In this document: positions 2,117-26,330 of the stretch, piece by piece
How the letters are laid out: each line of letters starts with the position of its first letter
Position numbering within the stretch: the first letter of the stretch is position 1
Source of the DNA: Helicobacteraceae bacterium
GTDB taxonomy: Bacteria; Campylobacterota; Campylobacteria; Campylobacterales; Sulfurimonadaceae
Reading direction: 5' to 3'
Assembly: GCA_013138865.1 (NCBI GenBank)
Contig: WTBY01000037.1
Span: forward strand, 1-64,000
Length of the DNA: 64,000 bases
Translations under genes and position numbers: made by a program
Notes under the pieces: generated by a model
What the model was told of the DNA's origin: nothing
Databases searched by the model: none
What the model saw: only the letters and a program-made list of their open reading frames with translations

Positions 2117-2123
2117 TAATTTA

Positions 2124-2156: not shown

Positions 2157-2294
2157 GTTTCGTTGAAATAACCTTGCAAGAACACCTTTACCAAACACCA
2201 CACTAATAATAAATAATAATACAAAAATATCACTTTTTATCTGTAGTTAATAGTTAAACAGCTAAAGTAACATCAGCTATTATGCCAATTTAAA

Positions 2295-2315
2295 TTGTGA
2301 TATTGAATATCACAA
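2295..2315. promoter_or_regulatory. 21-bp palindrome upstream of reductase operon
   Basis: TTGTGATATT and AATATCACAA form a perfect inverted repeat around one central G, ending 20 bases before the ATG at 2336 and just upstream of the ribosome binding site. The TGTGA/TCACA ends recall CRP/FNR-family half-sites, but the spacing (9 bases) is wider than the usual 6. It is a good candidate operator for a regulator that responds to electron acceptor supply. A leader hairpin is the alternative. Confidence 0.5.
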
Positions 2316-2335
2316 ATTTTAAGTAAGGAGAGTAA

Positions 2336-2971
2336 ATGCAATTAGGATTCCTAGTTGACCTTCACATGTGTATGGGTTGTAAAGGTTGTGAGGTAGCATG
2401 TAAAGTGGAGAATGAAGTTCCACTTTCTACATGGAGACTTCGCGTTAAGTATGTTGATACGGGTGTATTCCCTGAGACTAAGAGAACATTTACACCATTA
2501 AGATGTAATCACTGTGCTAACGCACCATGTGTGCGTATCTGTCCAGTTAGTGCTCTGCACTATCTTGATAATGGTATTGTTAATATTGACAATGAAAGAT
2601 GTATAGGGTGTGCTGGATGTATGATGGCTTGTCCTTATGGAGCTATCTACATAGATCCACAAACACAAACAGCTGACAAATGTACTTATTGTGCACACCG
2701 TATTGCTTCTTCAATGATGCCTGCTTGTGTTGTTGCTTGTCCAGTTCAGGCAAATATTTTTGGTGATTTAGATGATGCTACATCTAATATTAGTAAATAT
2801 ATTATGGATGCTGGTAGTGACTTACAAGTACGTAAACCAGAAAAAGGTACGTTCCCTCATCATTTCTATGTTGGTGGTGGTAATGTAACTCTTAATCCAT
2901 TAGCATCGTTTAGAGCTGAAGGACATTCACTGTTTAATAACTTAACACATCTTCCAGTAGGAGGTCACTAA
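2336..2971 (+). CDS. four-cluster 4Fe-4S electron-transfer subunit (PsrB/TtrB-like)
   Basis: This 211-residue protein is the iron-sulfur subunit of a complex iron-sulfur molybdoenzyme. Sixteen cysteines sit in four groups (12/15/18/22, 57/60/65/69, 89/92/95/99 and 116/119/131/135), the standard set for four cubane clusters. There is no signal peptide; such subunits are exported with the TAT-bearing catalytic partner. It carries electrons between the membrane anchor encoded next (one-base TAATG overlap) and the catalytic subunit at 3883. Gene order B-C-A matches ttrBCA of tetrathionate reductases, but PsrB- or SoeB-type partners are equally compatible. Confidence 0.88.
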   Translation: MQLGFLVDLHMCMGCKGCEVACKVENEVPLSTWRLRVKYVDTGVFPETKRTFTPLRCNHCANAPCVRICPVSALHYLDNGIVNIDNERCIGCAGCMMACPYGAIYIDPQTQTADKCTYCAHRIASSMMPACVVACPVQANIFGDLDDATSNISKYIMDAGSDLQVRKPEKGTFPHHFYVGGGNVTLNPLASFRAEGHSLFNNLTHLPVGGH

Positions 2972-3870
2972 TGGTACATGATGCACTAGCTGCAACAAAT
3001 GCAGTAGTAACACTTGATGTTGCTTTACCTAGCGTTATTTGGGGTTGGATTATTACTATGAATATGTGGGCTAAAAGTATTGGTACTGGTATCATATTTG
3101 TAGCTTTCTATATGTTAAAGAAATATCCAAATGAGGCTGGTTTTATCCGTTTACCAACGGCTATAATCTCATTTATTTTTATTAATATGTTCTTGTTATT
3201 TACTGTAATTGACTTACATCAAATGTTTAGATTTTGGCATATCTTTTTCCACCCTAATTTCACTTCAGCTATTACAGTTGGTGCATGGATGGCAACACTG
3301 TTTATGGGTCTTTTAATGGGTCTTTTATATGCTAGTTTTATCAAAAAAGATACAGCGTTATTTGACAAAATTTTACTACCAACAGTTATTTTAGCTGTTC
3401 CAGTTACTCTGTATACTGCAGGTCTTATGGCTCAGTCAACTGCACGTGAATTATGGCAAATGCCAACAGAGTCTGTACAGATGATTTTAGCAGCTACTCT
3501 TTCTGGTTCTGCTGTAATGCTTCTAATAGCTAACAAGCTACCTTATGAAGCAAGACGTGACCTTGGTTTAGTGCTTGCATTTAGTGGTTCTGCAGCATTT
3601 ATTATTTATATGGCTGAGTTAGTATTTGGTCCTATGAAAGCGGAAGAAGTAGCTGTAACACTAGAGGCTATTAAAGGTCATGGTGAGTACACAAGTATGT
3701 TCTGGATAGGTCAAGTTTTAGGATTTATATTACCAACTGTTTTAGTAATTTTAAGTGTTACTAACCGTACAGAAGGTTTACTAAAATTAGCTGCTGTTTC
3801 TGCACTAGTTGGACTATGGATAACAAAACATGTTTGGTTAGTTATTCCACAATTACTAAATTTAAGTTAG
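2971..3870 (+). CDS. NrfD/PsrC-family membrane anchor
   Basis: This 299-residue protein has about eight hydrophobic helices and belongs to the NrfD/PsrC family, the quinone-reactive anchor of molybdoenzymes in the cytoplasmic membrane. Its start shares one base with the stop of the FeS subunit gene, implying coupled translation in equal amounts. Histidine- and aromatic-rich segments near residue 85 (DLHQMFRFWHIFFHP) and in the last helix are suitable for quinone binding. It links the complex to the menaquinone pool. The direction of electron flow cannot be inferred from it. Confidence 0.85.
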   Translation: MVHDALAATNAVVTLDVALPSVIWGWIITMNMWAKSIGTGIIFVAFYMLKKYPNEAGFIRLPTAIISFIFINMFLLFTVIDLHQMFRFWHIFFHPNFTSAITVGAWMATLFMGLLMGLLYASFIKKDTALFDKILLPTVILAVPVTLYTAGLMAQSTARELWQMPTESVQMILAATLSGSAVMLLIANKLPYEARRDLGLVLAFSGSAAFIIYMAELVFGPMKAEEVAVTLEAIKGHGEYTSMFWIGQVLGFILPTVLVILSVTNRTEGLLKLAAVSALVGLWITKHVWLVIPQLLNLS

Positions 3871-3882
3871 AGAGGTTTTTTA

Positions 3883-6800
3883 ATGTATTTAGAAAGTAGA
3901 AGAACGTTTTTAAAAGGTGCTGCATTTAGTGTTGCAGGCGCCGCTATTGCTAAGGGTGTATTTAGTACAGATGTACTTGCTTCTTCAGTAAAAGATAGTA
4001 AGTTTACAGATACTCCTGATTCACTCTCTTTTTATCCACCACTAGATCAGTGGGAAGATTTTCAAGAGTTAAGTGCTGAGAGTTGGAAGGGCGGTGGTAT
4101 CGCTCGTCGTGGTGTTCAAAGTGAAGATAATCCAGATGGTATTAAAGTTAATGATTATGCGATCGTACCTACGGCTTGTTCAAATTGTGAAGCAGCTTGT
4201 GGTCTAACTGCATGGATTGATAAAAACACATTTAGTGTTGTTAAGTATATGGGTAATCCACTTCACCCTGGCTCACGTGGTCGTAACTGTGCAAAAGGTT
4301 ATGCTACTCAGTCTCAAATGTATGATCCAGATCGTCTACCATTCCCATTAAAAAGAGCTCCTGGTTCTAAACGTGGTGAAGGTAAATGGTTACGTACTAC
4401 TTGGGATGAAGCAATGACTTCAATCGGTAAGAAGATGAACCATACACTTCGTAAAGGTGATGAATTATCTAAAAAATCAGTAATGTTCCACGTTGGTCGT
4501 CCAAATGAGAATGGTTTTACTGGTAACGTATGGAGTACACTTGGTTGTGACTCTTTTAATTCACATACAAATATTTGTAGTTCTGGTGGTCGTACTCCGA
4601 CAATTCAGTGGGCAAATGATGATAGAAGTTCACCAGATTGGGCTAATGCGAAATTAATTTTCCTTAACTCATCTCACGCTGCTGATGCTGGTCACTATTT
4701 CCAACAATCAGCTTCTTTTATTGCTGATGCTAGAAAAAAAGGTGCAAAACTTGTAGTTATGGATCCACGTCTTTCTAACTCAGCGGGTATGGCTGACTTA
4801 TGGATTCACGCATGGCCTGGAACTGAACCAGTTATATACCTTTACCTAGCTAACCGTATTTTAAATGAAGGTGAACTTAATGTTGACTTTGTTAAAAAAT
4901 GGATGAACTGGGAAGTTTTCTTAGATAACAAAAAATACTTAGAGTTTATGGTTGAAAAAGGCTATATCTCTAAAATGCCTGAAGGTAATGATTTTGATAC
5001 TTTTGTTGAAGTATTAAAAGAGTTATATGCTCCTTACAGCTTAGAGTACGCTGTTAAAGAGTCACATGTTCCTGCTTACAAACTAGAAAAACTTTATGAG
5101 TATTTCATAGAAGCTGGTACTGCGATTTCTTCTTACTTTTGGCGTGCTGCTGCTGCGGGTAACCGTGGTGGCTGGATGAGTGGACGTACAGGTTTCTTAG
5201 CACTAGGTTTACGTGGAGCTATTGGACCTAAAGGTGGGACTTTCTTTCATCACTGGCATGTTATTTCTGTTGCTGGTAAAGGTGGTAGTTCGACTATTGG
5301 ACAAGGTAAACGTGGATCTAAAATCCCTAAAGTTGATGTATGGAATGAGTTAGCATGGCCACCAGAATGGCCTCTATCAACTTATGAGATGTCATTTTTA
5401 CTACCTCACCTTCTTTCTGATACTGAGTGGCAAAAAAAATGGATAGACAAAGGACTTAATGTACCTCAAAAACTAGCTGTTTGGATTCCTCGTATGTATA
5501 ACCCAGTTTGGATTAATCCAGATGGTTTTAGATGGTTAGAAGTTCTTAAAGACGAAACAAAAATGGAACTTACATTTAACCTTTCTCCTACTTGGAGTGA
5601 GACTAACTGGTATGTTGACTATATTTTACCAATGGGTCTTGCTGGTGAGCGTCACGATCAACACTCTGAAGCAACTATGCCTGCTCGTTGGACATCGTTC
5701 CGTCAGCCGGTTATGAGAGTTGCATTAGAAAAAGCTGGTTGGAAGCCTAACAACCCTAACCGTGCTACACTAGAGGCTCATATTAAAGCTGGTCTTGGTG
5801 AAGTTTGGGAAGAGAATGAGTTCTGGTTTGATATGTGTGTTAACTACATTGATCCTGATGGAAAATTAGGTATTCAAAAAATGTGGGAATCAAAACGTAA
5901 CCCAGGTAAACCAGTTACGATCGCAGAGTGGTATGACGCAGCGTTTGGTGATAACTTACCAAACCTTTATAAAACTGCTACAAATGATGCTCGTTACTCA
6001 ACTGCTGAATTTCCAGTTTATGAGTATATGAGAGATCATGGTGCATGGTTAGAGCAAAATGATATCTATTCTGCTCAAGAGTATAAACTTAAAGATGATG
6101 GTCAAAACCTTATCTCTCACGGTCACAAATACAAAAAAAGTGACTGTTACCTTGATAGACGTACTGGTGTTATCACTGCGAAAGATCATAAAACTGGTTG
6201 GAAATACCCTGGTGGTAAAAAACCAATTGGTATTGAGATCGATGGCGAAAGAATGGAAGGTTTTGCGACAAATGACAAAAAACTAGACTTCTTCTGTGAG
6301 TGGTTAGCTGACGACTGGAAATGGCCAGAGTACGCTATACCTTTTTACCCTCGTAATGAGAAAGAGAAAGAAGAGATGGTTCATATCGTTTCTCATGTTA
6401 ACCATATGTACATGAATGGAGATAATGAGTTTGCACTAAATACTGTATTTAGACTTCCTTATAATATCCATACACGTTCTGCTAACTCTAAGCACCTTAT
6501 GGAAATTTCTCAAAATCATGACCCTATTTGGATCAGTACACAAGATGCTAAGAAATTAGGTTTCAAACGTGGAGATCCGATAAGAGTTAAAATTACAGAT
6601 ACTGTTTCTAACTTAGACTCTGGTTTCTTCGTTGCTATGGCTGTTCCAACTGAGGGTGTTCTTCCAGGAACACTTGCATGTTCTCACCATGGTGGTAGAT
6701 GGAAACTTAAAAATTCAGTAAATATCCCTAATGGTGTTAGTGATGGAAAAATAAACTCTAATAACACACCTCGTGATATGAGTAACCCTGAATTTATGGC

Positions 6801-7293
6801 TGAGTCACCTAAAAATGCTGGTAAAGATGGCGAAAAAATTGAAGACTTCAATGGCGACATTGGACTAATCGGTTTTGGTGCTCCTTTAGCTGAGATGCAA
6901 ATGGATGGTAAAGAGGGTAAACTTCAATACATTGAAGGTATTAAACCATTTAAGACAGAACGTTGGGCTGAATACAATGATGATACTTCAAACATCTGGT
7001 GGGATGGACTTTCGGGTTCATGGCAAAATGCTGTAGCACCTGCACATCCAGATCCTATTTCTGGTATGCATTGTTGGCATCAAAAAGTAATTTTAGAGCC
7101 TGCTGAAAAAGGTGATAAAATTGGTGATATTCATGTTAACTATGAAAACAACCTTAATACTTATAGAGCTTGGAGAGATAAGTTAACACGTGGATTAGAT
7201 TCTGATTCTAAACTACGTCGTCCTCCATTTATTAAGCGTCCTTGGGTACCTTTAAGCGAAAAAGCTTACACGGTAGAAATTAAAGACGTTTAG
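3883..7293 (+). CDS. large molybdopterin oxidoreductase, catalytic subunit (Psr/Ttr/Soe-like)
   Basis: This 1136-residue protein is a DMSO-reductase-family catalytic subunit. It starts with a twin-arginine signal (RRTFLKG, residues 6-12) followed by an Ala-rich helix, so the enzyme faces the periplasm. Cys99, Cys102, Cys106 and Cys136 form the proximal 4Fe-4S site. Cys232 in SHTNICSSGGRTP is the likely Mo ligand, as in polysulfide, tetrathionate and related reductases. The length exceeds PsrA (about 750 residues) and is nearer TtrA and SoeA. Substrate candidates are tetrathionate, polysulfide, sulfite or another sulfur or arsenic oxyanion; the sequence does not decide. It follows the anchor gene by 12 bases and has an AGAGAGG ribosome binding site. 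Confidence 0.85.
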   Translation: MYLESRRTFLKGAAFSVAGAAIAKGVFSTDVLASSVKDSKFTDTPDSLSFYPPLDQWEDFQELSAESWKGGGIARRGVQSEDNPDGIKVNDYAIVPTACSNCEAACGLTAWIDKNTFSVVKYMGNPLHPGSRGRNCAKGYATQSQMYDPDRLPFPLKRAPGSKRGEGKWLRTTWDEAMTSIGKKMNHTLRKGDELSKKSVMFHVGRPNENGFTGNVWSTLGCDSFNSHTNICSSGGRTPTIQWANDDRSSPDWANAKLIFLNSSHAADAGHYFQQSASFIADARKKGAKLVVMDPRLSNSAGMADLWIHAWPGTEPVIYLYLANRILNEGELNVDFVKKWMNWEVFLDNKKYLEFMVEKGYISKMPEGNDFDTFVEVLKELYAPYSLEYAVKESHVPAYKLEKLYEYFIEAGTAISSYFWRAAAAGNRGGWMSGRTGFLALGLRGAIGPKGGTFFHHWHVISVAGKGGSSTIGQGKRGSKIPKVDVWNELAWPPEWPLSTYEMSFLLPHLLSDTEWQKKWIDKGLNVPQKLAVWIPRMYNPVWINPDGFRWLEVLKDETKMELTFNLSPTWSETNWYVDYILPMGLAGERHDQHSEATMPARWTSFRQPVMRVALEKAGWKPNNPNRATLEAHIKAGLGEVWEENEFWFDMCVNYIDPDGKLGIQKMWESKRNPGKPVTIAEWYDAAFGDNLPNLYKTATNDARYSTAEFPVYEYMRDHGAWLEQNDIYSAQEYKLKDDGQNLISHGHKYKKSDCYLDRRTGVITAKDHKTGWKYPGGKKPIGIEIDGERMEGFATNDKKLDFFCEWLADDWKWPEYAIPFYPRNEKEKEEMVHIVSHVNHMYMNGDNEFALNTVFRLPYNIHTRSANSKHLMEISQNHDPIWISTQDAKKLGFKRGDPIRVKITDTVSNLDSGFFVAMAVPTEGVLPGTLACSHHGGRWKLKNSVNIPNGVSDGKINSNNTPRDMSNPEFMAESPKNAGKDGEKIEDFNGDIGLIGFGAPLAEMQMDGKEGKLQYIEGIKPFKTERWAEYNDDTSNIWWDGLSGSWQNAVAPAHPDPISGMHCWHQKVILEPAEKGDKIGDIHVNYENNLNTYRAWRDKLTRGLDSDSKLRRPPFIKRPWVPLSEKAYTVEIKDV

Positions 7294-7319
7294 TCTTTAC
7301 GAGCATTTGCTCGTAAAGA
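7294..7319. terminator. perfect hairpin inside the reductase operon
   Basis: TCTTTACGAGC at 7294-7304 and GCTCGTAAAGA at 7309-7319 make an 11-base perfect stem with an ATTT loop, starting directly after the catalytic-subunit stop codon. No U-run follows. It may be an attenuating terminator or a 3'-end stabiliser that separates high expression of the structural genes from lower expression of the maturation genes. Confidence 0.6.
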
Positions 7320-7383
7320 ACTCCTTATACTTCAAAACTTATTTATAATCCTTCAACATAACCCAATTTTCAGATAGCTTAGC

Positions 7384-7389
7384 TACAAT
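7384..7389 (+). promoter_or_regulatory. possible -10 box before chaperone gene
   Basis: TACAAT at 7384-7389 lies 31 bases upstream of the ATG at 7421, in an AT-rich stretch after the hairpin. Campylobacterota housekeeping promoters often show only a -10 box, so this could be a second promoter for the maturation genes. Confidence 0.35.
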
Positions 7390-7420
7390 CTTCTATTATT
7401 TTTTACTAAGGTACTAGCTT

Positions 7421-8035
7421 ATGGAACAGACACTTTCACGTAGTAATATTTATGCACTTATCTCAAGACTTCTTTTAATTGAGCTTGACGAGACACTTCT
7501 AGAACAAATTAAATCTGATGAGAATATATTAGATTTTTTTCCAAACTTTAAAGAGTGGAGTAAAGTTAAAGAGTTAGATTCTAAAACTTTAATAGAGCAA
7601 TTTCTCTCACCTGACTTTACAAATATTTCACTTCTACATCTTATCCCTTATGAGTCTTTTTATATTAGAGAAGATCAAATGATAGAGACGGGTGGGGCAA
7701 ACCCTGTTACAGATATGTACAGCGCTTTTAACTTCCATGTTGATTATGCAAAATCTCGTGTTGTTTCATCTGATCATATAGGCGTAGAGTTAGAGTTTAT
7801 GCACTACCTATGTAGTGCTCAACTTAAAGCTGAAGAGGCAAAAGATGAAGTTGCGATCACTGAGTTAAAACGTGTTCAAAAAGAGTTTTTAAATAAGCAT
7901 CTTCTTCAATGGGCACCACTATATTTAATTAACTTTAAATATGAGGCTCGTACTCCTATTTATCATGATTTAGGTGAAATGGCTTTAGAGTTTATTCTCT
8001 CAGACAACGAATACTTAAGTGGTGAAGTTAAATAG
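7421..8035 (+). CDS. TorD-family molybdoenzyme chaperone
   Basis: This 204-residue, all-helical cytoplasmic protein fits the TorD/DmsD family, which binds the TAT signal and apo-form of a molybdoenzyme until cofactor is loaded. Seen features are the acidic central helix with HIGVELEFMHYLC (near residue 125), matching the family's ELxFMxxL core, and the WAPLYL segment near 166. It lies between the catalytic-subunit gene and the polyferredoxin gene (4-base gap to the latter). Its client is therefore most likely the 1136-residue enzyme. Confidence 0.8.
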   Translation: MEQTLSRSNIYALISRLLLIELDETLLEQIKSDENILDFFPNFKEWSKVKELDSKTLIEQFLSPDFTNISLLHLIPYESFYIREDQMIETGGANPVTDMYSAFNFHVDYAKSRVVSSDHIGVELEFMHYLCSAQLKAEEAKDEVAITELKRVQKEFLNKHLLQWAPLYLINFKYEARTPIYHDLGEMALEFILSDNEYLSGEVK

Positions 8036-8039
8036 TTAA

Positions 8040-9152
8040 ATGGCACTCTTAAGACTAAATGCTTCTGCTTGTGTACGTAACTTAGTTAAAGCATCTACAT
8101 GTAGATCCTGTGTTGATATATGTCCAACTAAGGCAATTGATATACTTGAGGGTGGACTTGATGCGACTATACCTGCACTTAACCTTTCTAAATGTGTTGG
8201 TTGTGCCGGTTGTGTTAGTATATGTCCCTCTTCAGCACTTAGTGTAGAAGAATTTGATGCAACAACTTTTTTCTTCTCATTTATGAAAGAGAATACAAAA
8301 AATACTCTCTCATGCCAAGATAATGTCCCATGTTTAGCATCTTTAAATGTTGAGCAACTTTTAGCACTTAGTGTATTTAAAAAAGAGTTACACCTAGACG
8401 GTGCTCATTGTGAAAGTTGTGATATAGCTCATACTTGTAAGCCATTTATAGATAAGAGTGTTGAGGAGGTAGAGTATCTTCTCTCAGCTATGGACTCAAC
8501 TGCTAAAATTCAGATAAAAGATCTAAATATTATTTCAGAGCAGATACCACAAGAGCAAAATAGAAGAGATTTTTTTAACGCTTTTCATCTGAAAAATGCA
8601 ATAAAAAGTAAAAAAGATTTTGAAGATAGAGTTGAGAGTTCAACTGATGAGTTTATTGCACATAATTTAAATGCTGAAAAAGTAAAAGAGATACGTGCTA
8701 AAAGTGATCTTTCAGATAGAAAAAAACTTTTTTTTACTGCGATCAAAAGAGTAGATGTACCAGAACAATTTCATGTAGTTGATGCTAAAGAGGTAACATT
8801 TACTTCTCAAAAGTTAATAGATAAAGAGTTATGTACAGCGTGTCAAATGTGTTATAGAATTTGTCCTACAAAAGCTCTTAAGAGTGATGGTAAAAACTCT
8901 AAAATAGATTTTGATGCTTTTTTGTGTATTAAGTGTGCTAGTTGTATAGATGTTTGTGAGCCTAAAGCTATCTATTCATCTGACTCATTTAATATAAAAG
9001 AGTTCTTCGCTCCATCTATACAGCGCCTTATAACTTATGACGTTAAAAGGTGTAATGAGTGTACTGCTTTTTTTACCTCAATACAAGGATCTGAAGTTTG
9101 TCATAGATGTCAAGCAGAAGAAGACGATGCAAAGGAGTTATGGGGCTTATGA
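8040..9152 (+). CDS. polyferredoxin-like 4Fe-4S protein
   Basis: This 370-residue soluble protein has two ferredoxin domains separated by a long linker. The N-terminal domain has Cys11/21/24/28 and Cys52/55/58/62. A middle cysteine group (near 133-142, CESCDIAHTC) follows. The C-terminal domain repeats CTACQMCYRICPTKA and CIKCASCIDVCEPKA, and the tail has a CNEC...CHRC pair like a zinc or extra FeS site. No signal peptide is seen. Such proteins accompany TorD in Campylobacterota molybdoenzyme clusters and may deliver electrons or assist assembly. The exact role is unknown. Confidence 0.7.
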   Translation: MALLRLNASACVRNLVKASTCRSCVDICPTKAIDILEGGLDATIPALNLSKCVGCAGCVSICPSSALSVEEFDATTFFFSFMKENTKNTLSCQDNVPCLASLNVEQLLALSVFKKELHLDGAHCESCDIAHTCKPFIDKSVEEVEYLLSAMDSTAKIQIKDLNIISEQIPQEQNRRDFFNAFHLKNAIKSKKDFEDRVESSTDEFIAHNLNAEKVKEIRAKSDLSDRKKLFFTAIKRVDVPEQFHVVDAKEVTFTSQKLIDKELCTACQMCYRICPTKALKSDGKNSKIDFDAFLCIKCASCIDVCEPKAIYSSDSFNIKEFFAPSIQRLITYDVKRCNECTAFFTSIQGSEVCHRCQAEEDDAKELWGL

Positions 9153-9565
9153 TGAACAACAATGATGAATTAAAGACAGATACGAAGGCTTTTGCTTTTA
9201 TAGCTTTTAAAGCAACTTCTGACCGCTTTAGTACGATAATAAACAAGCTTTTTAAAGATGATGAGAGCAATGCAATGATTATTCCTATGAATATCCGTCA
9301 TGATGATTTTTTTTACACTATGTCGAATATGAAAAATTCTAAGCTTGATGGTGCCGTTATATCTGAAGAGTTTACAAAAGATATAATAGAGCATTTAGAC
9401 TCTAAGAGTGAGGCTGTAGAAAAGTACGGAGTTTGTGATATAGTTATACTTAAAGATAAGAAATTTTATGGTGACTATCTATTTATAAGTACAAGAGAAG
9501 AGAACAGTGAAGAGTTTGATTATAAGAAAATTACTATATATTTAAAAGGAGATACAGATGAGTAA
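9149..9565 (+). CDS. unknown cytoplasmic protein in reductase operon
   Basis: I take the start at the ATG at 9149, which overlaps the previous stop by four bases (ATGA) and has AAGGAG 11 bases upstream; a second ATG follows at once, and an upstream in-frame extension would run into the ferredoxin gene. The 138-residue product has no signal peptide or membrane helix. It alternates short strands and helices, with a conserved-looking segment (IPMNIRHDDFFYTM) that faintly recalls the substrate domain of shikimate dehydrogenases, too weak for a call. Its coupling to the chaperone genes suggests a maturation or accessory role. Confidence 0.6.
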   Translation: MMNNNDELKTDTKAFAFIAFKATSDRFSTIINKLFKDDESNAMIIPMNIRHDDFFYTMSNMKNSKLDGAVISEEFTKDIIEHLDSKSEAVEKYGVCDIVILKDKKFYGDYLFISTREENSEEFDYKKITIYLKGDTDE

Positions 9566-10073
9566 AGGTGATGCATCATTTGATGAGTTAAAATTAGAGT
9601 TTGATAAATTTGTAAAACAAAAATGTACAACAGATGGGGATTTTGATGAAAAAAATCAAAATCCAGACTCTGGAGATAAAGAAGATGACGAAGCAGTTCC
9701 AGCTTTTGTAGATGAAATAGCTGATCAAATGTTAGCACCAGCAATTTCTGGTGTCTATTTATCACGTATAGATATTAAAAGAGTTGCTGAAGCTATAGAC
9801 GAGTCGTTACCTATTAAAGAACGTAAGAAGATGATTAGAGCACTTTTCCGTCATACAACGACTCGTGAGTACTTAAGAGGGGCATTTGATGAGTTCGCTA
9901 GACATATTAATGGGCGTGTACTTATCTATCAAGAGTTAAGTGAAGCATTTCCAGCATCTAAACCTGTTTTTGATAGCTTTATAGCTAAAAGTGAGAAAAT
10001 GAGTACTCTTTGTGATAGAATAGTAGAAGATTTTGAAGAGATAGATCCTACTTTTGAGCCAATGCTAACTTAG
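9558..10073 (+). CDS. unknown acidic/helical protein in reductase operon
   Basis: This 171-residue protein overlaps the preceding gene by eight bases. Residues 1-50 are strongly acidic and low in complexity (many D, E, K, N). Residues 55-171 form a helical domain with SRIDIKRVAEAIDESL and KERKKMIRALFRHTT, then an amphipathic helix. There is no signal peptide. The family is not recognised. Its position suggests partnership with the TorD-like chaperone or the polyferredoxin in assembling the molybdoenzyme. Confidence 0.6.
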   Translation: MSKGDASFDELKLEFDKFVKQKCTTDGDFDEKNQNPDSGDKEDDEAVPAFVDEIADQMLAPAISGVYLSRIDIKRVAEAIDESLPIKERKKMIRALFRHTTTREYLRGAFDEFARHINGRVLIYQELSEAFPASKPVFDSFIAKSEKMSTLCDRIVEDFEEIDPTFEPMLT

Positions 10074-10102
10074 AAGTAGAATAGATAAAGGAGGGAAATA
10101 TA

Positions 10103-10624
10103 GTGAACACTTATGATTATAAAAGTGATAATTATGTTTACCCTGTAGTTCAAAGAGCAAAAACACTTCTAGAAGAAGAGGCTCAAATAGAGGTAGGTAG
10201 TATTACTTCTAAAGAGATTTTAACTCAGTTTGTCAATCCACAACATATAACCTCTATGATAGCTATTGGTGGCGATGTAAATATGTATGTTGCTATTAGT
10301 TATGAAAAAACTGTTATAACTAAATTAATTAAACTTTTTATATATGATGAAGTGAATGAAAATGAGTTAGAAGAGTTGAGCGAAGCTACAGCAAGTGAAA
10401 TATCTAATACTATTGTTGGTAACTCAATCTCATCTATGCCATATGCATCTCAAAAACTGATACGTATTAGTACCCCAGTGACTATTAAAAATAGTGATTT
10501 GTCAGTAATTAAGAGAAATCATAAAATGTACGAGATAACACTACTAAGCGAATTAGGTAATATTATTATCTATATAATAAAAGTATTAGATAGTGATGTA
10601 CTAGAAGACATTTTAAAGTTATAG
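10103..10624 (+). CDS. CheX/CheC-like chemotaxis phosphatase domain protein
   Basis: This 173-residue protein starts with GTG at 10103 behind AAGGAGGG. The segment ELSEATASEISNTIVGNSI (near residues 90-108) matches the CheC/CheX/FliY signature ExxxN, whose Glu and Asn catalyse dephosphorylation of CheY-P. The rest is consistent with the alternating strands of that fold. It follows the reductase maturation genes by 30 bases on the same strand, so it may be co-transcribed. That would be an unusual link between respiration and taxis. Whether the phosphatase is active is not shown. Confidence 0.7.
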   Translation: MNTYDYKSDNYVYPVVQRAKTLLEEEAQIEVGSITSKEILTQFVNPQHITSMIAIGGDVNMYVAISYEKTVITKLIKLFIYDEVNENELEELSEATASEISNTIVGNSISSMPYASQKLIRISTPVTIKNSDLSVIKRNHKMYEITLLSELGNIIIYIIKVLDSDVLEDILKL

Positions 10625-17153: not shown

Positions 17154-18062
17154 ATGAAAAAACTATTTTTACTACTTCTACTTACATTCACTCTCTCAGC
17201 AAAAACTATTACTCCAAATGAGGTTTATTCTCAAGTTTCACTGATTACAGACGAGGTCCACTTTTTACTGAATTATTATGGTATCAAGCATGAAAATAAC
17301 GAGATCACAAAACATCCAAAAGTCTCTACAAAACTTAAACCTAGAAACGTATGGCAAATGACTTATGAAATAATGGTTAAAATAAATATATTGAGAGAAG
17401 ATAATAACCTTCCAGTTATTGAGCCTGTAAATATGTCACCTGTACTCAACTTAAACCCTGATATGGTTTATGAACAGACACAAAGAATTTTAACAGAGTT
17501 GAAAATTTTTGAGATTAGAATGGGAATAAAAGCACCGATTTTTGAAAAAAAAATATTCAAGGGTAAAACTTCCTTAGATGTTTATAATGCACTTACTCAT
17601 GTTTCTAAAAATATTGATGAGCTAAATAAAGGTACTGTTACTCCATCATTCGTATTTGCTGAACAGATGAGAGTATATGAAGACATAACACTACTGCTAG
17701 AGCGTCTTAAGATAGAAGATAAAAGTATTCCAAGCGCTAAGAAACTGGGTTCTGTTCCAGAAAATGCTTTTGATGAGTCTCTAAAACTTTTGGAGAAGAT
17801 CAAACAACTTCAAATTATCTCTGGAATAAATTTTGTAGATTTTTCAGAGTTTAAAAAAGGTAACGAATCTCCAAGTGATGTTTTTACAATTACTCAAATG
17901 ATTTTAGCAGAACTTCAGACATTAAAGGCGTATGTTGGTGAAGACACCATTACAAAAGCTGCAATAAGGTACAACACTAAAACACCTTCAGAAGTTCGTC
18001 AGCTTGTTAGTTGGAATCTTAGAAAACTAAACCTAATTCACTCTTTAAATAAAGGTAACTAA
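17154..18062 (+). CDS. exported protein built of about eight 38-residue repeats
   Basis: This 302-residue protein starts with a signal peptide (residues 1-16, cleavage likely after LSA). The rest is a series of degenerate units beginning P-x-x-[VA]-[FYW] and followed by an amphipathic helix with the pattern I-L-x-E-L-x3-L. Units start near residues 21, 63, 102, 139, 164, 202, 240 and 278, so most are 37-42 long. No known domain is recognised. It precedes the hybrid kinase by one base, making it a likely periplasmic binding or scaffold partner for the kinase sensor domain. Confidence 0.7.
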   Translation: MKKLFLLLLLTFTLSAKTITPNEVYSQVSLITDEVHFLLNYYGIKHENNEITKHPKVSTKLKPRNVWQMTYEIMVKINILREDNNLPVIEPVNMSPVLNLNPDMVYEQTQRILTELKIFEIRMGIKAPIFEKKIFKGKTSLDVYNALTHVSKNIDELNKGTVTPSFVFAEQMRVYEDITLLLERLKIEDKSIPSAKKLGSVPENAFDESLKLLEKIKQLQIISGINFVDFSEFKKGNESPSDVFTITQMILAELQTLKAYVGEDTITKAAIRYNTKTPSEVRQLVSWNLRKLNLIHSLNKGN

Positions 18063-18063
18063 C

Positions 18064-21000
18064 ATGAATCTATCTGTTAAAAATAAAATATTTTCTATCT
18101 TTGTCATTACAACTATTATCTCTATTAGTGCTATTGGTTGGTTTGGTTTTAGTAGTGCTAAAGATGCCTATATAGACTCTGCACTATCTATAAATCAAGG
18201 TGAAACTAAAGCTCTAGCAAATGAGATCAAAGGTGTTTTAGGAACCATACCTGAAGATGTACTCTATAATGCAAATTTCTATGCACTAGAAAAACTCTTA
18301 GTTTGGGAAGACTTAGAAGATAAGAAAAAAATACAAAAATGGAAAAATATCTATATTTCAAGTCTAAAAGACTATGTACTAAATAAACAACTTTACTACC
18401 AAATTAGAGTTTTAGATAATAAAGGTAATGAGAAAATACTTCTTAAGTATAACGAAAAGTCAGGTACTATCATAGATACTCCAAAAAACAGACTCCAAAA
18501 TAAGTCTCATATAAACTATTTTTTAGAAGCGAAAAAACTAAAAAAAGGGAAATTCTATATATCACCAATGACTTTAAATATAGAAAATGGTGTAATAGAA
18601 AAACCTTATGTCCCAGTTATCAGATACTCTACTCCTATAATAGATCAAAATGGTGAGTTTAAAGGTGTGATTGTACTTAACTTTAACGCAACATATATTT
18701 TAAATGAGATCGCAACTGCAAAAGCTATTGATGACACAAGAGAGGTACAAAAGTACTACCTTGTAAATGAGCAAGGTTACTATTTATTTATAGGTGACAA
18801 AAGTAAGAGGTGGGGCTTACAATTGGGTCATGATTACTCTTTTACAAGAGACTATCCTGGTATTTTAGAAAAGTTTAAAGATAAAGATCAGACTACCTTT
18901 ATAAAAAATGGAAGAATTTTTTCTATGGATAAAATATACCCTAATAAGGCAGATAACCAGTATAGGTTTTGGTACTTGGTTACTGAAATTGATGAGCAAG
19001 TAGCATTTTCATCGTTAGAGACTTTTATAAATATCTTTTTTATAATTCTTATATTTGTTCTATTTTTTAGTCTACTAACTACAAACTGGTATATTTCAAA
19101 AATTATAACTCCTTTAGAAAAAGTAACCTCTCAACTAAAAGCTCTCTCAAGAGGTGAAATAAAAAAAGAAGAAATTACTTATAGTGCTAATGATGAAGTA
19201 GGTGAGATTGTAAGTTATACTACTATTTTAGTTGATGCTATTGAGACTACAATACAGCAAGCTAGATTAGTGGCTAATGGAGACTTTTCAAAAGAGATAA
19301 ACCTTCTTAGCAAAAACGACCAACTAGGTCTCTCTATTCAAGATATGACAAAGAGACTAAAAGAGATAACAGAGCTCTCAAGCTCACTCTCAAATGGTAA
19401 TTATGATGTAAATGTTATAGTTAAAGGCAGTAGTGATCATTTAGGTATTGCACTTAAAGATATGGTTACATACCTAAAGACTATAACTGAACTTACTGAG
19501 TCTATAGCTCTAGGTGATCTAAATGTTATGTATAAAGCTAAGGGCGAGCAAGATCGTTTAGGTCTTGCTATACTTCAAATGACAAGCTACCTAAGAAGTA
19601 TATTGAAGCAGGCTAACTCTATTTCTAAAAATGACTTTAGTGGCTCTATTGAAGCAAGAAGTAAAGATGATGAGTTAGGTATAGCACTTATTACAATGAC
19701 AGATATTTTAAGAGACTCAGCAATAAAAAATAAAAATGAGATCTATTTTAGTGAAGGAATAGCTACATTTAGTGACAGCTTGAGTGGAATTAGTGAGACT
19801 AGTAAATTAGCAAAAGAGGCAATCACAATGGCATGTCGTTATATAGATGCAAGTAGTGGTGCTATATATATCTATAACAAAGATAATGCCGAGTTAAACC
19901 TTATAGCTTCTTATGCGTATACTTCTCGTGATGCACTTTCCAATATTTTCAAACTTGGAGAGGGTGTTGTTGGACAAGTTGCACTAGAGAAAGAGCCTAT
20001 ACTTCTTAAAAATATAAAAGATGATGAGTATAAAATTCAGAGTGCTACCACAGTTGCATCTGCTAAAGAGGTCTACACTTTTCCTCTAATAATTGAGGGT
20101 GAACTATTTGGTGTAGCTGAAGTGATGAGTTTTGAAAGCTTTAGTGATATTCAAAAAGATTACTTAGCTAAAGCTGCTAGCATTTTTTCAACAGCACTTC
20201 ATACCACAAGTCAAAATGCACAAATAAAAGTACTTCTTGAAAAATCTCAACAAGCATTTGAAGAGCTACAGGTTCAAAGTGAAGAGCTACAAGAGTCAAA
20301 CGTTCAAATGGAAGAGCAACAACAACAGCTGACTATTCAGTCTAAAGAACTTACAGACAAAAATAATACACTAGCAAACGCAAAAAAAGAGATCGATAAA
20401 CGTGCTGAAGATTTTGAACGTGCATCTACTTATAAAAGTGAGTTTTTAGCAAACATGAGTCATGAGTTAAGAACACCACTTAACTCGATCATACTACTCT
20501 CTAAACTCCTAACACAAAACCAAAATAACACTCTAAATGAGAAAGATGTAGAAAAAAGTAGTGTTATTCATAAAGCAGGAAACGATCTACTTCTTCTTAT
20601 AAATGATATTTTAGACTTAACAAAAATAGAGTCAGGAAATATGGAGCTACTAAGTGAAGAGATAAATACAAAAGAGCTTTGTGAAGATATGAAAGGACTC
20701 TTTAACGCTTTAGCTGATGAGAAGAAAATAGAGTTTATTATTAATGACTCGTTTAAGTCAGCTTTTGTAACAGACAAAACAAAAATAGCACAAGTTCTTA
20801 AAAACTTACTAAGTAACTCCTTTAAATTTACAAAAAAGGGTTCAATTACACTCTCTATTATTAAAGAGAAGAGCAATCTACTCATAAGTGTAAAAGATAC
20901 GGGTATAGGTATACCAAATGACAAACTAGAGTATATCTTCGATGCATTTAAACAAGTAGATGGATCTATTAGTCGTGAGTTTGGTGGAACTGGCTTGGGT

Positions 21001-21594
21001 CTGTCTATTACTAAAACTATAGTTGATCTTATGGGTGGTAGAATTGATCTTAGCTCTACATTTGGAGAGGGCACTATTTTTAAAATAACACTTCCACTTG
21101 AAAATAATAGCGTAATTGAAAAAGCTATAAAAGAAGAAATTCAAGAGTTTAACCTTCAAGCAAACAGTCCAGAAGTAGCAATTATCTTAGACGAAGATGA
21201 CACTATATTTAACAACAAAGTGTTGAGCGAAAAAAATATTCTTATAGTTGATGATGATAGTAGAAATATATTTACATTAACGTCTATACTAGAGAGTATG
21301 GACGCTGATGTTTATAGTGCTTTTAATGGTCAAGAGGCCATTGATACTCTTGAAGAAGGTACGCATATAGACCTAATATTAATGGATATTATGATGCCTG
21401 TTATGGATGGACTAAAAGCTATAGAGTCAATTAAAGCTAACAAAAAGTTTAAAGATATCCCTATAATAGCTATAACAGCTAAAACAATGCCTGAAGATAA
21501 ACAAGCATGTTTAGATGCTGGAGCTGATGAGTATTTATCTAAACCTTTAGAGCATCAAGCGTTAATATCAACAATAAAAGCCTGGGTAAAATAG
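18064..21594 (+). CDS. hybrid histidine kinase with five HAMP units, GAF and receiver
   Basis: This 1176-residue membrane protein has a first transmembrane helix (about 9-30), a periplasmic dCache-like sensor (about 35-310), a second helix (322-341), then five consecutive HAMP-like units starting near 345, 400, 440, 478 and 518. A GAF domain (about 575-715), a Gln/Glu-rich coiled coil (720-785), HisKA with His800 in NMSHELRTPLN, HATPase_c (with DTGIGIP and GGTGLGLSI) and a C-terminal receiver (Asp1108 in LMDIMMPVMDG) follow. It should autophosphorylate and pass phosphate to its own receiver or to the downstream response regulators. Confidence 0.88.
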   Translation: MNLSVKNKIFSIFVITTIISISAIGWFGFSSAKDAYIDSALSINQGETKALANEIKGVLGTIPEDVLYNANFYALEKLLVWEDLEDKKKIQKWKNIYISSLKDYVLNKQLYYQIRVLDNKGNEKILLKYNEKSGTIIDTPKNRLQNKSHINYFLEAKKLKKGKFYISPMTLNIENGVIEKPYVPVIRYSTPIIDQNGEFKGVIVLNFNATYILNEIATAKAIDDTREVQKYYLVNEQGYYLFIGDKSKRWGLQLGHDYSFTRDYPGILEKFKDKDQTTFIKNGRIFSMDKIYPNKADNQYRFWYLVTEIDEQVAFSSLETFINIFFIILIFVLFFSLLTTNWYISKIITPLEKVTSQLKALSRGEIKKEEITYSANDEVGEIVSYTTILVDAIETTIQQARLVANGDFSKEINLLSKNDQLGLSIQDMTKRLKEITELSSSLSNGNYDVNVIVKGSSDHLGIALKDMVTYLKTITELTESIALGDLNVMYKAKGEQDRLGLAILQMTSYLRSILKQANSISKNDFSGSIEARSKDDELGIALITMTDILRDSAIKNKNEIYFSEGIATFSDSLSGISETSKLAKEAITMACRYIDASSGAIYIYNKDNAELNLIASYAYTSRDALSNIFKLGEGVVGQVALEKEPILLKNIKDDEYKIQSATTVASAKEVYTFPLIIEGELFGVAEVMSFESFSDIQKDYLAKAASIFSTALHTTSQNAQIKVLLEKSQQAFEELQVQSEELQESNVQMEEQQQQLTIQSKELTDKNNTLANAKKEIDKRAEDFERASTYKSEFLANMSHELRTPLNSIILLSKLLTQNQNNTLNEKDVEKSSVIHKAGNDLLLLINDILDLTKIESGNMELLSEEINTKELCEDMKGLFNALADEKKIEFIINDSFKSAFVTDKTKIAQVLKNLLSNSFKFTKKGSITLSIIKEKSNLLISVKDTGIGIPNDKLEYIFDAFKQVDGSISREFGGTGLGLSITKTIVDLMGGRIDLSSTFGEGTIFKITLPLENNSVIEKAIKEEIQEFNLQANSPEVAIILDEDDTIFNNKVLSEKNILIVDDDSRNIFTLTSILESMDADVYSAFNGQEAIDTLEEGTHIDLILMDIMMPVMDGLKAIESIKANKKFKDIPIIAITAKTMPEDKQACLDAGADEYLSKPLEHQALISTIKAWVK

Positions 21595-23262
21595 TTGTTA
21601 AAATTTTTTGAAAAAGATCATCGTTGCGAAGTTTTAATAGATCCACCATTTAAAAGTGAAGATATTAAAACGCTCTCAACACTATTTTCAAAAAACTATA
21701 TCTCGTGGAGTATAATATTTGGTAGAATTTATAGTGTTGAAGTAGAGTTAATTCAACTTCTTTATAAAGAAATTATAAAAAATAAAAAGAGTATATCGCT
21801 TACAACACATAAATATAAGTTAAATCGTTATTTTCATCAACTGGGTTTTACAACAACTTTTAACTCACTTATAAAAGATGATGTAATTGATGTTGAAAGT
21901 GTAGAAGTTGTTCTTATTGGTGGAAGTGCTGATTCATCTTCAAAAGTTATGGAGATCATAAAAAATTGCTCATTTAAAAACTTAACACTTATTATTGTTC
22001 AACATGTAGAGGCGAATGGAACTCAACTGTTTGATAAAGTTTTACAAGAGTACACATCAACAAAAGTTACTTACGCAAAAGATGGTGAAGAAATTAAAAA
22101 GTCAAGAATCTATATAGCACCACACAATACTCATTTAAAAGTAATCGATGGTTATTTTGCACTAAGCTTTGAAAAGAAATATAACTTTTCTCGGCCATCT
22201 ATCTCGATCTCTTATGACTCTTTTTCTACATACTATAAAGATAAGCTAGTAGTTATTCAAGAGTGTGGTTACTCTAATGATGGAGTAGATAAGCTAAAAC
22301 TTTTAAAAAAGAATAAAACAAAAATAATTATTCAAGATAAGTGTGAATGTGAAGCGAAACCTATGGTACTCAATGCACTTGAATTAAATTTAGAAGACTA
22401 CATTTTCAACATTCAAAATATAGTCTCTTTTATAAACTTTTTAGATTTGCAAAACTCAGACTCTCATAAAGTAGAATATCTGCTAGATATGATCTTAAAA
22501 ATATATGGTTATGATTTTAGGCTATATCAACGAAGTATGATTGAGAGACGTTTAAAAATTTTTATGCTCAAACATGATATACACACTATTAAGAATGCTG
22601 TAGGTGTAATTCTTTTTAATAGAAGTGCCTTTAAAGGGTTTTTTTTAGAGGCCTCTATCAATGTAACTGAGCTCTTTAGAGATACCTTATCTTTTAGTTC
22701 TATTGTAGATCTTTTAAAACACAGTTGTACAAAAAAACAATCTTTAAAAATATGGAGTGCTGGTTGTAGTAGCGGTGAAGAGGCCTATTCAATAGGAATT
22801 ATCCTTAAATCTTTAGCAATACTAGACAAGTCTATAATTTATGCTACTGACTTTAATAGTGTAATTTTAGAAGAGGCAAAAAATGCTATCTATTCTCAAG
22901 AAAGTTACAAGGTTGCAAAAAATAACTTTAATGAAATTAATCTAGATGATAACTTAGATAACTACATTACACAAAACAGTAACTTTATAACTATTAATGA
23001 GAATATTCGTAAAAAAGTACTGTTTTTTCAACACAACTTAGCTACGGATAGCTCTTTTAATGAATTTGATATTATAATATGTAAGAATGTTATAATATAT
23101 TTTGATAATACTTTACAAAACAGAGTATTCCAACTATTTTATGACTCACTTAAATTTGGTGGTTTTTTGGTATTAGGTGAATCTGAGGCAATACAAGAAG
23201 AGTTTACAAATAAATTTATTAAATGTACTGACAAGTGTAAAATATTTAAGAAAGTTGCATAA
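21595..23262 (+). CDS. CheB-CheR fusion without receiver
   Basis: This 555-residue protein starts with TTG immediately after the kinase stop. Residues 1-95 form a small STAS-like region. Residues 104-285 are a CheB methylesterase domain with the catalytic Ser111 (IGGSADS), His137 (VQHVEAN) and Asp229 (GYSNDGVDKL) all present. Residues 290-555 are a CheR methyltransferase with SINVTELFRD, the SAM motif AGCSSGEEAYSI and CKNVIIYF. The usual CheB receiver is missing. The fusion could set and remove a methyl mark on the same target, perhaps the HAMP-rich kinase or a receptor elsewhere. Confidence 0.85.
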   Translation: MLKFFEKDHRCEVLIDPPFKSEDIKTLSTLFSKNYISWSIIFGRIYSVEVELIQLLYKEIIKNKKSISLTTHKYKLNRYFHQLGFTTTFNSLIKDDVIDVESVEVVLIGGSADSSSKVMEIIKNCSFKNLTLIIVQHVEANGTQLFDKVLQEYTSTKVTYAKDGEEIKKSRIYIAPHNTHLKVIDGYFALSFEKKYNFSRPSISISYDSFSTYYKDKLVVIQECGYSNDGVDKLKLLKKNKTKIIIQDKCECEAKPMVLNALELNLEDYIFNIQNIVSFINFLDLQNSDSHKVEYLLDMILKIYGYDFRLYQRSMIERRLKIFMLKHDIHTIKNAVGVILFNRSAFKGFFLEASINVTELFRDTLSFSSIVDLLKHSCTKKQSLKIWSAGCSSGEEAYSIGIILKSLAILDKSIIYATDFNSVILEEAKNAIYSQESYKVAKNNFNEINLDDNLDNYITQNSNFITINENIRKKVLFFQHNLATDSSFNEFDIIICKNVIIYFDNTLQNRVFQLFYDSLKFGGFLVLGESEAIQEEFTNKFIKCTDKCKIFKKVA

Positions 23263-24528
23263 ATGAAACAAAATATACTTTGTGTAGATGATATACAGAC
23301 AAACCTTTTTATACTTACTAGTGTTTTTGAAGAGTTTGCAGGAGATCAGTATAACCTCTTCCTTGCAACTTCTGCTATGGAGGGTTTAGATATCCTTCTT
23401 AAAGAGAAAATAGACCTCATCTTACTAGACATTATGATGCCTGAAATAGATGGCTTTGCTGCCGCTAAGATGATAAGATCAAATAAAAAGACAAAAGATA
23501 TTCCGATCATATTTGTAACTGCTAAAAAAGATGATGAATCAATAGAGATGTGTTATAAAGTCGGTGGTGATGACTATGTTAATAAGCCATTTAACTATAC
23601 TGAACTATTAGCACGTGTCTCATTTCATATACAATCAAAAGAGAAAGATGTACTTCTTAAAGAAGAGCAAGAGTATGTGCAAAGTATCTTAAATTTACAA
23701 GAAAACATGATCCTTGTAACTGATGGTAAAAAAGCAATAAATGCTAATCATGCTCTTTTAAACTTCTATAATGTAGAAACTGTAGAAGATTTTCAAAAGA
23801 CGTTAAAATGTGTCTGTTTTACTTTTATAAAAGATGATGGATTCTTTAGTCTGAACCTTTTAAAAGAAGATGATCAATGGGTTAATGAAGTTATACAACG
23901 ATCCAAAAGCGAAGATGTGGTCGTAAAAATTATAAAAGATGAAACAATAGAGGCTATATTTAACGTAAAAGCTGCAACTTTCAAAGAACAATACATAGTA
24001 ACGCTTACAGATATAACGCAAATTTCAAACCTCTCTTTAGAGTATCAACATGAAGCAAACTTTGACTCTTTAACTCAGGTATATAATAGAAATATGTTTC
24101 AACGCCTTATAAGTAAAAAAATAACTATGGCTAAAGTAGAAGCTACCTCTTTTGTTTTTATTATATTAGATATAGATTATTTTAAAAATGTTAATGATAC
24201 TCACGGTCACTTAGTAGGTGACAAAGTACTTAAACAGTTATCTGCACTTATTAAAAAACATACAAGAATAAATGATATTTTTGCTAGATGGGGCGGAGAA
24301 GAGTTTGTTTTAAGCTTTAATGTAAAACTCAAAAAGGGTCTTGAAATAGCTGAAAGTTTAAGAGTACATATTGAGAATGAAAATTTTGAAGATGTAGACC
24401 AGATCACTTGTAGTTTTGGAGTAACTGAGTTTAAAGATAATGACACACAAGACAGTCTAATAAAACGAGCTGATACAGCTCTTTATGAAGCAAAAGAGCG
24501 TGGAAGAAATATGGTTTGTCAAGCTTAA
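23263..24528 (+). CDS. response regulator diguanylate cyclase
   Basis: This 421-residue protein has an N-terminal receiver (Asp56 in LLDIMMPEIDG), a central PAS-like region (about 135-255) and a C-terminal GGDEF domain. The active-site GGEEF at 344-348 is intact, and an RxxD product-inhibition site (RIND, 335-338) lies five residues before it. It should make c-di-GMP when phosphorylated. The ATG directly follows the CheB-CheR stop. The phosphate donor is probably the hybrid kinase in the same operon. Confidence 0.9.
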   Translation: MKQNILCVDDIQTNLFILTSVFEEFAGDQYNLFLATSAMEGLDILLKEKIDLILLDIMMPEIDGFAAAKMIRSNKKTKDIPIIFVTAKKDDESIEMCYKVGGDDYVNKPFNYTELLARVSFHIQSKEKDVLLKEEQEYVQSILNLQENMILVTDGKKAINANHALLNFYNVETVEDFQKTLKCVCFTFIKDDGFFSLNLLKEDDQWVNEVIQRSKSEDVVVKIIKDETIEAIFNVKAATFKEQYIVTLTDITQISNLSLEYQHEANFDSLTQVYNRNMFQRLISKKITMAKVEATSFVFIILDIDYFKNVNDTHGHLVGDKVLKQLSALIKKHTRINDIFARWGGEEFVLSFNVKLKKGLEIAESLRVHIENENFEDVDQITCSFGVTEFKDNDTQDSLIKRADTALYEAKERGRNMVCQA

Positions 24529-26330
24529 AGTCTAAGTATACAATTCTTTGTGTTGATGATAATGCAAATAACCTTTTTACGATAAATGCTCTTTTAAGTA
24601 CCCTAGATAGTGTCAAGACTAAAGATGCTCTTGGTGCTAAAGAGGCTTTAGATATTTTACTAACTCAACATATTGATCTCATACTTTGTGACGTTCAAAT
24701 GCCAGATATTAATGGTTTTGAGTTGGCAAAGATGATCAAGTCAAATAAAAAAACTAAAGATATCCCTATAATTTTTGTAACGGCTGTTTTTAAAAGTGAA
24801 GAGTTTATAAAACAGGGCTTTCAACTTGGTGCGGTTGATTATATAACAAAACCTATAGATGACAACCAACTTCTTAATAAGCTAAATCTCTATCTTAAAA
24901 TATTTACAGAAAAAGAAAAAGTTTTACAGAGTGAAAAAAGACTCTTTGATATAGCTCAAAGTATTGGTAATGGTATCTATACACTAGATACTGATTACAA
25001 TACAACATTTATCAATAACGAAGCACTAACTCTTCTTGGTTTTAAAGAGAGTGAACTACTAGGTAAATGTATTCATGATTATATTCACTATAAAGATATC
25101 AACAATAACCAAATTTTGTCTAAAGATTGTTGTGTTCACCAATCGATGTTAGCTAACAATATCTGTAGAAACGAAAATGAGTACTTAGTAAAAAAGGATG
25201 GTACTTTTTTACCTGTTTCGATAGTTACTACACCTCTTAGTATAAGCAATGAGGTAGTAGGGACTGTTGCTGTTTTTACAGATAAGTCAAATCAAAATAA
25301 AATAAGTCTGCTTGAACATGAAAAGCTTAAAAATCAAGAGCAGATGATTCACTCTATGATCGACATGATCGAATCACGTGACTCTTACACAGCGGGACAT
25401 ACCAAAAGAGTTGCATACTACTGTAAGCTCATAGCACAAGAGATGAATTTTAGTAATAATGATGTTGAGCTATTACAAAATGCTGCTTGGTTACATGACA
25501 TAGGTAAAATATCTACACCTGACAGTGTTCTTTTGAAACCTGGTAATTTAGACAAGAGAGAGTATTCCCTAATTCAAGAACATCTAAATTCTGGTTTTAC
25601 TATGTTAAATAGTATCGATCAGTATAAAGAGATTGCATCGGTTATGAGAGAACATCATGAAAAGTATGATGGCTCAGGTTATCCAAGAGGACTAATAGGT
25701 GATGAAATAAAACCTTTAAGTAAGATCATGATTGTAGCAGATGCTTTTGATGCTATGACAACTAACAGAGTCTACAAGCCAAAAAAGAGTATTGAGGTTG
25801 CACTAAAAGAGCTAGAGAGTTTAAGTGCTATTCACTTTCACCCTAATGTAGTTCATGCAGCAAAAAAAGTTCTAAAAAATATAAATATAGATGAAGAGAT
25901 CTCTCAACTACCAACGACAGAAATAGAAGAACAAAGGTTCGCATATTTTTACAAAGATCGTTTAACAAACCTGTTTATTATAGACTATATGGAGCTTATA
26001 CTACGCTACTACGTAAAAACAAAAGATATTTATACTTATGACATTAAGTTACACCACTTTAGTGCCTACAACAAAAAGTTTGGTTGGAAGAGTGGCGATT
26101 GCTACTTAATAAACTTTTCTGAATTTTTAAATAACATAGATAAAAAAAGTGTTGTTTTTAGAGTTGAAGGTGATGACTTTATGATCTTGAGTGAAAGTAA
26201 AATAGAGAGTATAGAGAGTAAAATTAAAGAGTACATTAATAATACAGAAAAAACTTTAGCGTGCTCCGTTGAAGAGAAGTTTATCGAAGATGTTCATAAC
26301 AACATGAAATCACTTTTGCAGATAGTTTAA
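24516..26330 (+). CDS. response regulator with PAS, HD-GYP and degenerate GGDEF
   Basis: This 604-residue protein starts with TTG at 24516, inside the end of the previous gene (13-base overlap). It holds a receiver (Asp59 in LCDVQMPDING), a PAS domain (about 140-260), and an HD-GYP domain with LHDIGK (326-331) and HHEKYDGSGYP (380-390) intact, predicted to hydrolyse c-di-GMP. Residues 455-600 look like a GGDEF domain whose signature has become EGDDF, so probably inactive. It would oppose the cyclase encoded just upstream. Confidence 0.87.
   Translation: MSSLKSKYTILCVDDNANNLFTINALLSTLDSVKTKDALGAKEALDILLTQHIDLILCDVQMPDINGFELAKMIKSNKKTKDIPIIFVTAVFKSEEFIKQGFQLGAVDYITKPIDDNQLLNKLNLYLKIFTEKEKVLQSEKRLFDIAQSIGNGIYTLDTDYNTTFINNEALTLLGFKESELLGKCIHDYIHYKDINNNQILSKDCCVHQSMLANNICRNENEYLVKKDGTFLPVSIVTTPLSISNEVVGTVAVFTDKSNQNKISLLEHEKLKNQEQMIHSMIDMIESRDSYTAGHTKRVAYYCKLIAQEMNFSNNDVELLQNAAWLHDIGKISTPDSVLLKPGNLDKREYSLIQEHLNSGFTMLNSIDQYKEIASVMREHHEKYDGSGYPRGLIGDEIKPLSKIMIVADAFDAMTTNRVYKPKKSIEVALKELESLSAIHFHPNVVHAAKKVLKNINIDEEISQLPTTEIEEQRFAYFYKDRLTNLFIIDYMELILRYYVKTKDIYTYDIKLHHFSAYNKKFGWKSGDCYLINFSEFLNNIDKKSVVFRVEGDDFMILSESKIESIESKIKEYINNTEKTLACSVEEKFIEDVHNNMKSLLQIV

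Follow-up and report, generated by a model that had tools for sequence, protein, structure and literature searches.

The window analysed here is a stretch of 64,000 nucleotides from a Helicobacteraceae bacterium (contig WTBY01000037.1, positions 1 to 64,000), and it carries on the forward strand a gene for a protein built of tandem repeats, which is directly followed by a gene for a hybrid histidine kinase and by further signalling genes. The features that matter for the argument are these:

17154..18062, + strand, repeat gene: 302 aa, ATG start; proposed periplasmic co-receptor with eight helical units
17154..17201, + strand, signal peptide, residues 1-16 (MKKLFLLLLLTFTLSA), read from the sequence
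17214..17339, + strand, repeat unit 1: residues 21-62, PNEVY; repeat statistics and unit HMM
17340..17456, + strand, repeat unit 2: residues 63-101, PRNVW; repeat statistics and unit HMM
17457..17570, + strand, repeat unit 3: residues 102-139, PDMVY; repeat statistics and unit HMM
17571..17642, + strand, repeat unit 4, the conserved short unit: residues 140-163, SLDVY; repeat statistics, unit HMM and family alignment
17643..17756, + strand, repeat unit 5: residues 164-201, PSFVF; repeat statistics and unit HMM
17757..17870, + strand, repeat unit 6: residues 202-239, PENAF; repeat statistics and unit HMM
17871..17984, + strand, repeat unit 7: residues 240-277, PSDVF; repeat statistics and unit HMM
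17985..18059, + strand, repeat unit 8: residues 278-302, PSEVR; repeat statistics and unit HMM
18064..21594, + strand, hybrid histidine kinase, the cognate receptor: dCache-type periplasmic sensor, HAMP, GAF, HisKA, HATPase, REC (Pfam)
21595..23262, + strand, CheB-CheR fusion: 0 bp gap after the kinase; kept in relatives
23263..24528, + strand, REC-GGDEF response regulator: same operon; kept in relatives
24516..26330, + strand, REC-PAS-HD (HD_5)-partial GGDEF protein: same operon; kept in relatives

The stop of the repeat gene at 18062 and the start of the kinase at 18064 leave 1 bp between the two genes, and the gene order of the whole operon recurs in several relatives. The sensor of the kinase is of the dCache type and falls into PF21623 (VP0354-type), its best PDB relatives by sequence being 3LID and 2P7J; the periplasmic domain takes up approximately residues 35-320 of the kinase. 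This likeness concerns the periplasmic domain of the kinase partner and not the repeat protein. Judging from the domains it encodes, the output of the operon is likely control of c-di-GMP. We also note that the CheB-CheR fusion (21595-23262) shares its operon with a histidine kinase and with c-di-GMP proteins, and that this operon contains no chemoreceptor.

The initial annotation described the product as a periplasmic protein with a signal peptide, and the hydrophobic N-terminus bears this out: read by eye, the signal peptide ends ...LSA-K, and nearly all close relatives likewise have a hydrophobic N-terminus ending in A. Export to the periplasm is therefore predicted for the 302-aa protein, whose mature part, residues 17-302, contains no Cys.

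What follows the signal peptide had been described as about eight degenerate repeats, and these are real. When the units were scored against one another with BLOSUM, each start being free to shift by up to 12 residues and the shuffles being given the same freedom, the optimised eight-unit similarity score was 377, as against -147 +/- 44 (maximum -47) for composition-matched shuffles. Further, a unit HMM of 24 positions, trained only on units of relatives of about 590 aa and with the window protein left out, recognises exactly eight stretches in that protein, and every proposed unit contains one of them; they start at 19, 76, 105, 142, 172, 206, 239 and 276. Together they score 30.8 bits, and no shuffle out of 200 exceeds 5.4 bits; two of the eight are weak taken singly (76-83 and 172-184). 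Seven of the eight unit starts originally given can be kept, while the fourth moves from 139 to 140; the units thus begin at 21, 63, 102, 140, 164, 202, 240 and 278, and the resulting spacings of 42, 39, 38, 24, 38, 38 and 38 agree with the claimed period of about 38 residues that is broken around the fourth unit. Since this short fourth unit, of about 24 residues, is kept family-wide and recurs in each half of the 590-aa proteins, its irregularity is a feature and not a sign of decay. With its eight units and short fourth unit, the window protein belongs to the repeat family. Pooled over about 100 domains, the consensus of a unit is approximately [KI]-T-P-s-D-V-Y-x5-I-L-x-E-L-x2-L-x4-G-I, and the unit most conserved in the family is unit 2 (P-R-H-V-[WY]-Q-K...K), with a mean column information of 2.01 bits, the highest of the eight. 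The claim that each unit continues as an amphipathic helix stands in part: the hydrophobic spacing is present in the pooled alignment, but in the window protein the hydrophobic moment is clearly higher than in its own shuffles for unit 4 alone.

The fold can be described with low confidence. An AlphaFold2 model of the full protein, for which the alignment consisted of two rows (the window protein and its relative L002 from a gammaproteobacterial MAG), has a mean pLDDT of 45 and shows a helix of 18-23 residues, one per unit, at all eight unit starts; at this pLDDT we discarded the packing in the model and retained only the pattern of one helix per unit. Units 5-8 modelled alone reach a pLDDT of 65, again with one helix per unit, and a Foldseek search of this model against the PDB returned no entry at E < 0.5. 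Between the long helices the models show an irregular, often proline-containing linker, with short helical pieces in some linkers. Covariation of neighbouring units, pooled over 103 domains, has its strongest signal between cap prolines, at lags 1-3, and contains no packing signal specific to lag 1. In these low-confidence models each unit would therefore be one helix of about 20 residues after a T-P-x-D-V-Y-like cap, and an alpha-solenoid, a bundle and an extended array are all compatible with such units.

Might the family belong to one of the known alpha-helical repeat superfamilies, such as TPR, PPR or HEAT, and have diverged beyond the reach of profiles? The 38-residue period and the one long helix per unit with short helical pieces in some linkers would fit, and tandem helical units of 34-40 residues are indeed what the family shares with alpha-solenoids of the TPR/PPR/HEAT type. 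However, neither single sequences nor profiles match anything of the kind in Pfam, NCBIfam or PDB sequences (TPR, PPR, HEAT, Sel1 and the other helical repeat profiles of Pfam included), and the low-confidence models show one long helix with an irregular linker, not two regular helices. The family differs also in its unit, T-P-x-D-V-Y plus a single helix of about 20 residues and an irregular linker, and in an array fixed at eight with a conserved short fourth unit. We consider such an origin doubtful; it concerns the fold and is in any case compatible with the role proposed below.

The initial annotation knew of no repeat family with this pattern, and our searches came to the same result, with no described match in Pfam, NCBIfam or PDB sequences. 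The window protein has no credible Pfam match, no NCBIfam match and no PDB sequence; profiles of 10 and 25 family members retrieve no credible PDB sequence, and scans of individual members against Pfam and NCBIfam give no credible family either. Literature searches on the unit motif and on receptor partners of this sort found nothing on the family, and searches of plasmids, phages and viral contigs found no relatives. A few weak matches were set aside. The best of them, to PexRD54 WY (PF22748; 5.5e-6 at best, below Pfam's cutoff), comes from a short K-T-P-x-D-V-F string in the 590-aa forms; it covers 12 residues only, no stretch passes singly, and the window protein has no match, so we judge it to be convergence or chance. 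A Pfam match to Zw10 is short or sub-threshold, and NCBIfam matches of single members at E 0.004-0.07, under various unrelated names, are taken as chance.

Relatives were found in the window's own bacterial family and order and in the class and phylum of the gammaproteobacterial MAG, whose L002 protein is 54% identical. With the 25-member profile, members are present in 20 of the 349 genomes sampled from the window's order and in 31 of the 378 from the L002 phylum, that is, in about 6-8% of the sampled genomes of both groups. They occur in two forms, one of about 300 residues with eight units and one of about 590 residues with sixteen. In the tree, the N-terminal halves of the long form all fall into one group (support 100) and the C-terminal halves into another (95), and thus the sequences are most simply explained by a single ancient tandem duplication that gave the sixteen-unit form before it spread between phyla. 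Despite its gammaproteobacterial record, the L002 gene falls inside the window's clade.

The most informative property of the family is what lies next to it. A family gene was counted as having a partner when the gene that follows it in the same orientation, no more than 200 bp away, encodes a receptor with two or more TM segments plus a signalling or Cache domain. Such a receptor lies directly downstream of 67 of the 80 family genes, compared with 9 of the 513 other ORFs called in the fetched family loci, a background that is itself enriched for receptors, which makes the comparison conservative. The corresponding Fisher p of about 1e-64 counts related loci many times and so overstates the number of independent events. 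The repeat gene is nearly always first, and the gap to the receptor is usually an overlap or within 20 bp. Most partners are histidine kinases, either hybrid or simple, that have dCache sensors, but the output varies: there are chemoreceptors (MCP; for example at L084, L093, L095, L097 and L099), GGDEF proteins (L102, L190) and a SpoIIE phosphatase (L048), and PAS proteins are also among the partner receptors. The tie to the neighbouring kinase suggested in the initial annotation is therefore strengthened, since the adjacency extends over two phyla and over receptors with four kinds of output.

Several of the exceptions retain the association in a different form: a chemoreceptor gene lies upstream of the family gene instead at L186 and L188; at L191 a chemoreceptor overlaps the family ORF; and at L100 a chemoreceptor is split, by a frameshift or a sequencing error, into a sensor ORF (6838-7545) and a signalling-domain ORF (7746-8696). 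L190 has a chemoreceptor upstream in addition to its downstream GGDEF receptor. No receptor adjoins the family gene at four loci (L087, L098, L196 and L199). Two loci deserve mention for other reasons. At L054 (genome G344, of the window's order) an ORF for a PAS receptor, which has two TM segments and a GGDEF fragment, lies between two different family members (4257-5171 and 6937-7851), and a GGDEF-EAL protein comes after them; this is possibly a receptor with two partners. At L097 two long tandem chemoreceptors (74-6699) with HAMP_2 arrays of 3 and 8 copies lie downstream of the family member.

Within the window's bacterial family the association can be followed gene by gene. Searching 151 genomes with the N-terminal 346 residues of the kinase as the sensor query, we found close orthologues (E < 1e-70, 38-58% identity; the next match is at 7e-29) in nine genomes and no others, counting that of the window. 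The complete 302-aa repeat gene is present in just these nine, and in each of them it lies next to the kinase gene (hypergeometric p about 1e-14, for orthologues that are related by descent within one bacterial family). Outside these complete cases, genome G002 has a repeat fragment at a contig end, where a partner cannot be seen. At L002 a kinase of the same type comes after the repeat gene; it is read as two ORFs (6939-9056, the sensor-GAF part, and 9182-10498, the HisKA-HATPase-REC part), so this kinase is split or frameshifted. As the L002 repeat gene sits inside the window's clade and the same kind of kinase adjoins it, its sequence context suggests that repeat gene and kinase moved to that genome together, as a pair.

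In our opinion the repeat protein is probably the periplasmic subunit of a two-part receptor, a helical-repeat co-receptor predicted to dock on the periplasmic domain of the adjacent receptor. The signal peptide and the two-TM topology of the partner would put the repeat protein and the receptor's sensor in the same compartment, and the protein is encoded with one cognate two-TM receptor, both by downstream adjacency across the family and by nine-of-nine co-occurrence. Docked there, the protein would present a ligand or report a condition of the envelope through a conserved face, unit 2 being the most conserved, and would shift the receptor between signalling states. In the window this would alter the flux from the kinase into the REC, CheB-CheR, REC-GGDEF and REC-PAS-HD proteins and by this route c-di-GMP. 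No ligand pocket and no solved relative were found for the repeat protein. If the whole family behaves in this way, which we think has about an even chance, its members form a widespread class of periplasmic receptor subunits, an all-helical module of eight or sixteen units common to histidine kinases, chemoreceptors, diguanylate cyclases and phosphatases and docking on both dCache and all-helical sensors.

Adjacent genes could also be co-regulated with no contact between their products. The repeat protein might then be an output or substrate of the two-component system, transcribed together with its regulator as a structural or envelope protein and never touching the receptor, which is what adjacency alone, and the few family genes without a receptor, would fit. 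We nevertheless regard this as quite unlikely. Chemoreceptor, GGDEF and SpoIIE phosphatase partners do not directly control transcription, and a partner that is kept while the output of the receptor changes argues against a mere regulated target gene; so does the order of the genes, in which the repeat gene nearly always leads and its stop either overlaps the start of the next gene or is separated from it by a gap close to zero. Another reading is a special case of the co-receptor proposal, with a different sign and a different stimulus: as a chaperone or stress reporter that is free in the periplasm, like CpxP, the protein would keep its kinase inhibited until damaged envelope components titrate the protein away. 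A kinase partner that is periplasmic, predicted to be all-helical and devoid of an obvious ligand-binding fold is in keeping with that, but there is no credible Pfam family and hence no homology of the CpxP/LTxxQ type (the corresponding Pfam profile gives no match at E up to 0.1 in any of 25 members), and the family pairs with chemoreceptors as well as with kinases, which CpxP-type proteins are not known to do. This reading too is unlikely. What the two systems share is a small periplasmic protein that modulates the sensor of a kinase, CpxP being the periplasmic accessory protein of CpxA (PMC4160245) and modulation being only proposed for the repeat protein; they differ in that the repeat family consists of eight or sixteen tandem units and has MCP, GGDEF and SpoIIE partners too.

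The preferred reading, a co-receptor, is of a known functional kind. LuxP with LuxQ and TorT with TorS are pairs of a periplasmic co-receptor and a histidine kinase, in which LuxP and TorT are alpha/beta periplasmic binding proteins. LuxQP has a double-PDC sensor, and TorS has an all-helical sensor that is bound by TorT (PMC8534201). The likeness to our case lies in a separate exported protein that is paired with a two-TM kinase, with a dCache-like sensor as in the window kinase (LuxQ) or an all-helical one as several chemoreceptor partners here may have (TorS), and by analogy the repeat protein may control its receptor as LuxP does LuxQ and TorT does TorS. In contrast to LuxP and TorT, it is predicted to be an all-helical tandem-repeat protein with no sequence relation to described families, and no profile in Pfam, NCBIfam or the PDB detects the periplasmic-binding-protein fold in it. 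Both the protein and the range of its partners appear undescribed in these libraries, and an unnamed entry in InterPro, COG or AlphaFold DB may exist.

The analysis thus adds a helical-repeat family with a defined number of units, absent from the libraries searched (Pfam, NCBIfam and PDB). The signal is unknown for most bacterial receptors, and assays on an isolated receptor domain fail when the sensing is done by a partner protein. A partner that recurs beside kinases, chemoreceptors and cyclases, in some 6-8% of the sampled genomes of two groups, gives a reason to test such receptors together with the repeat protein.
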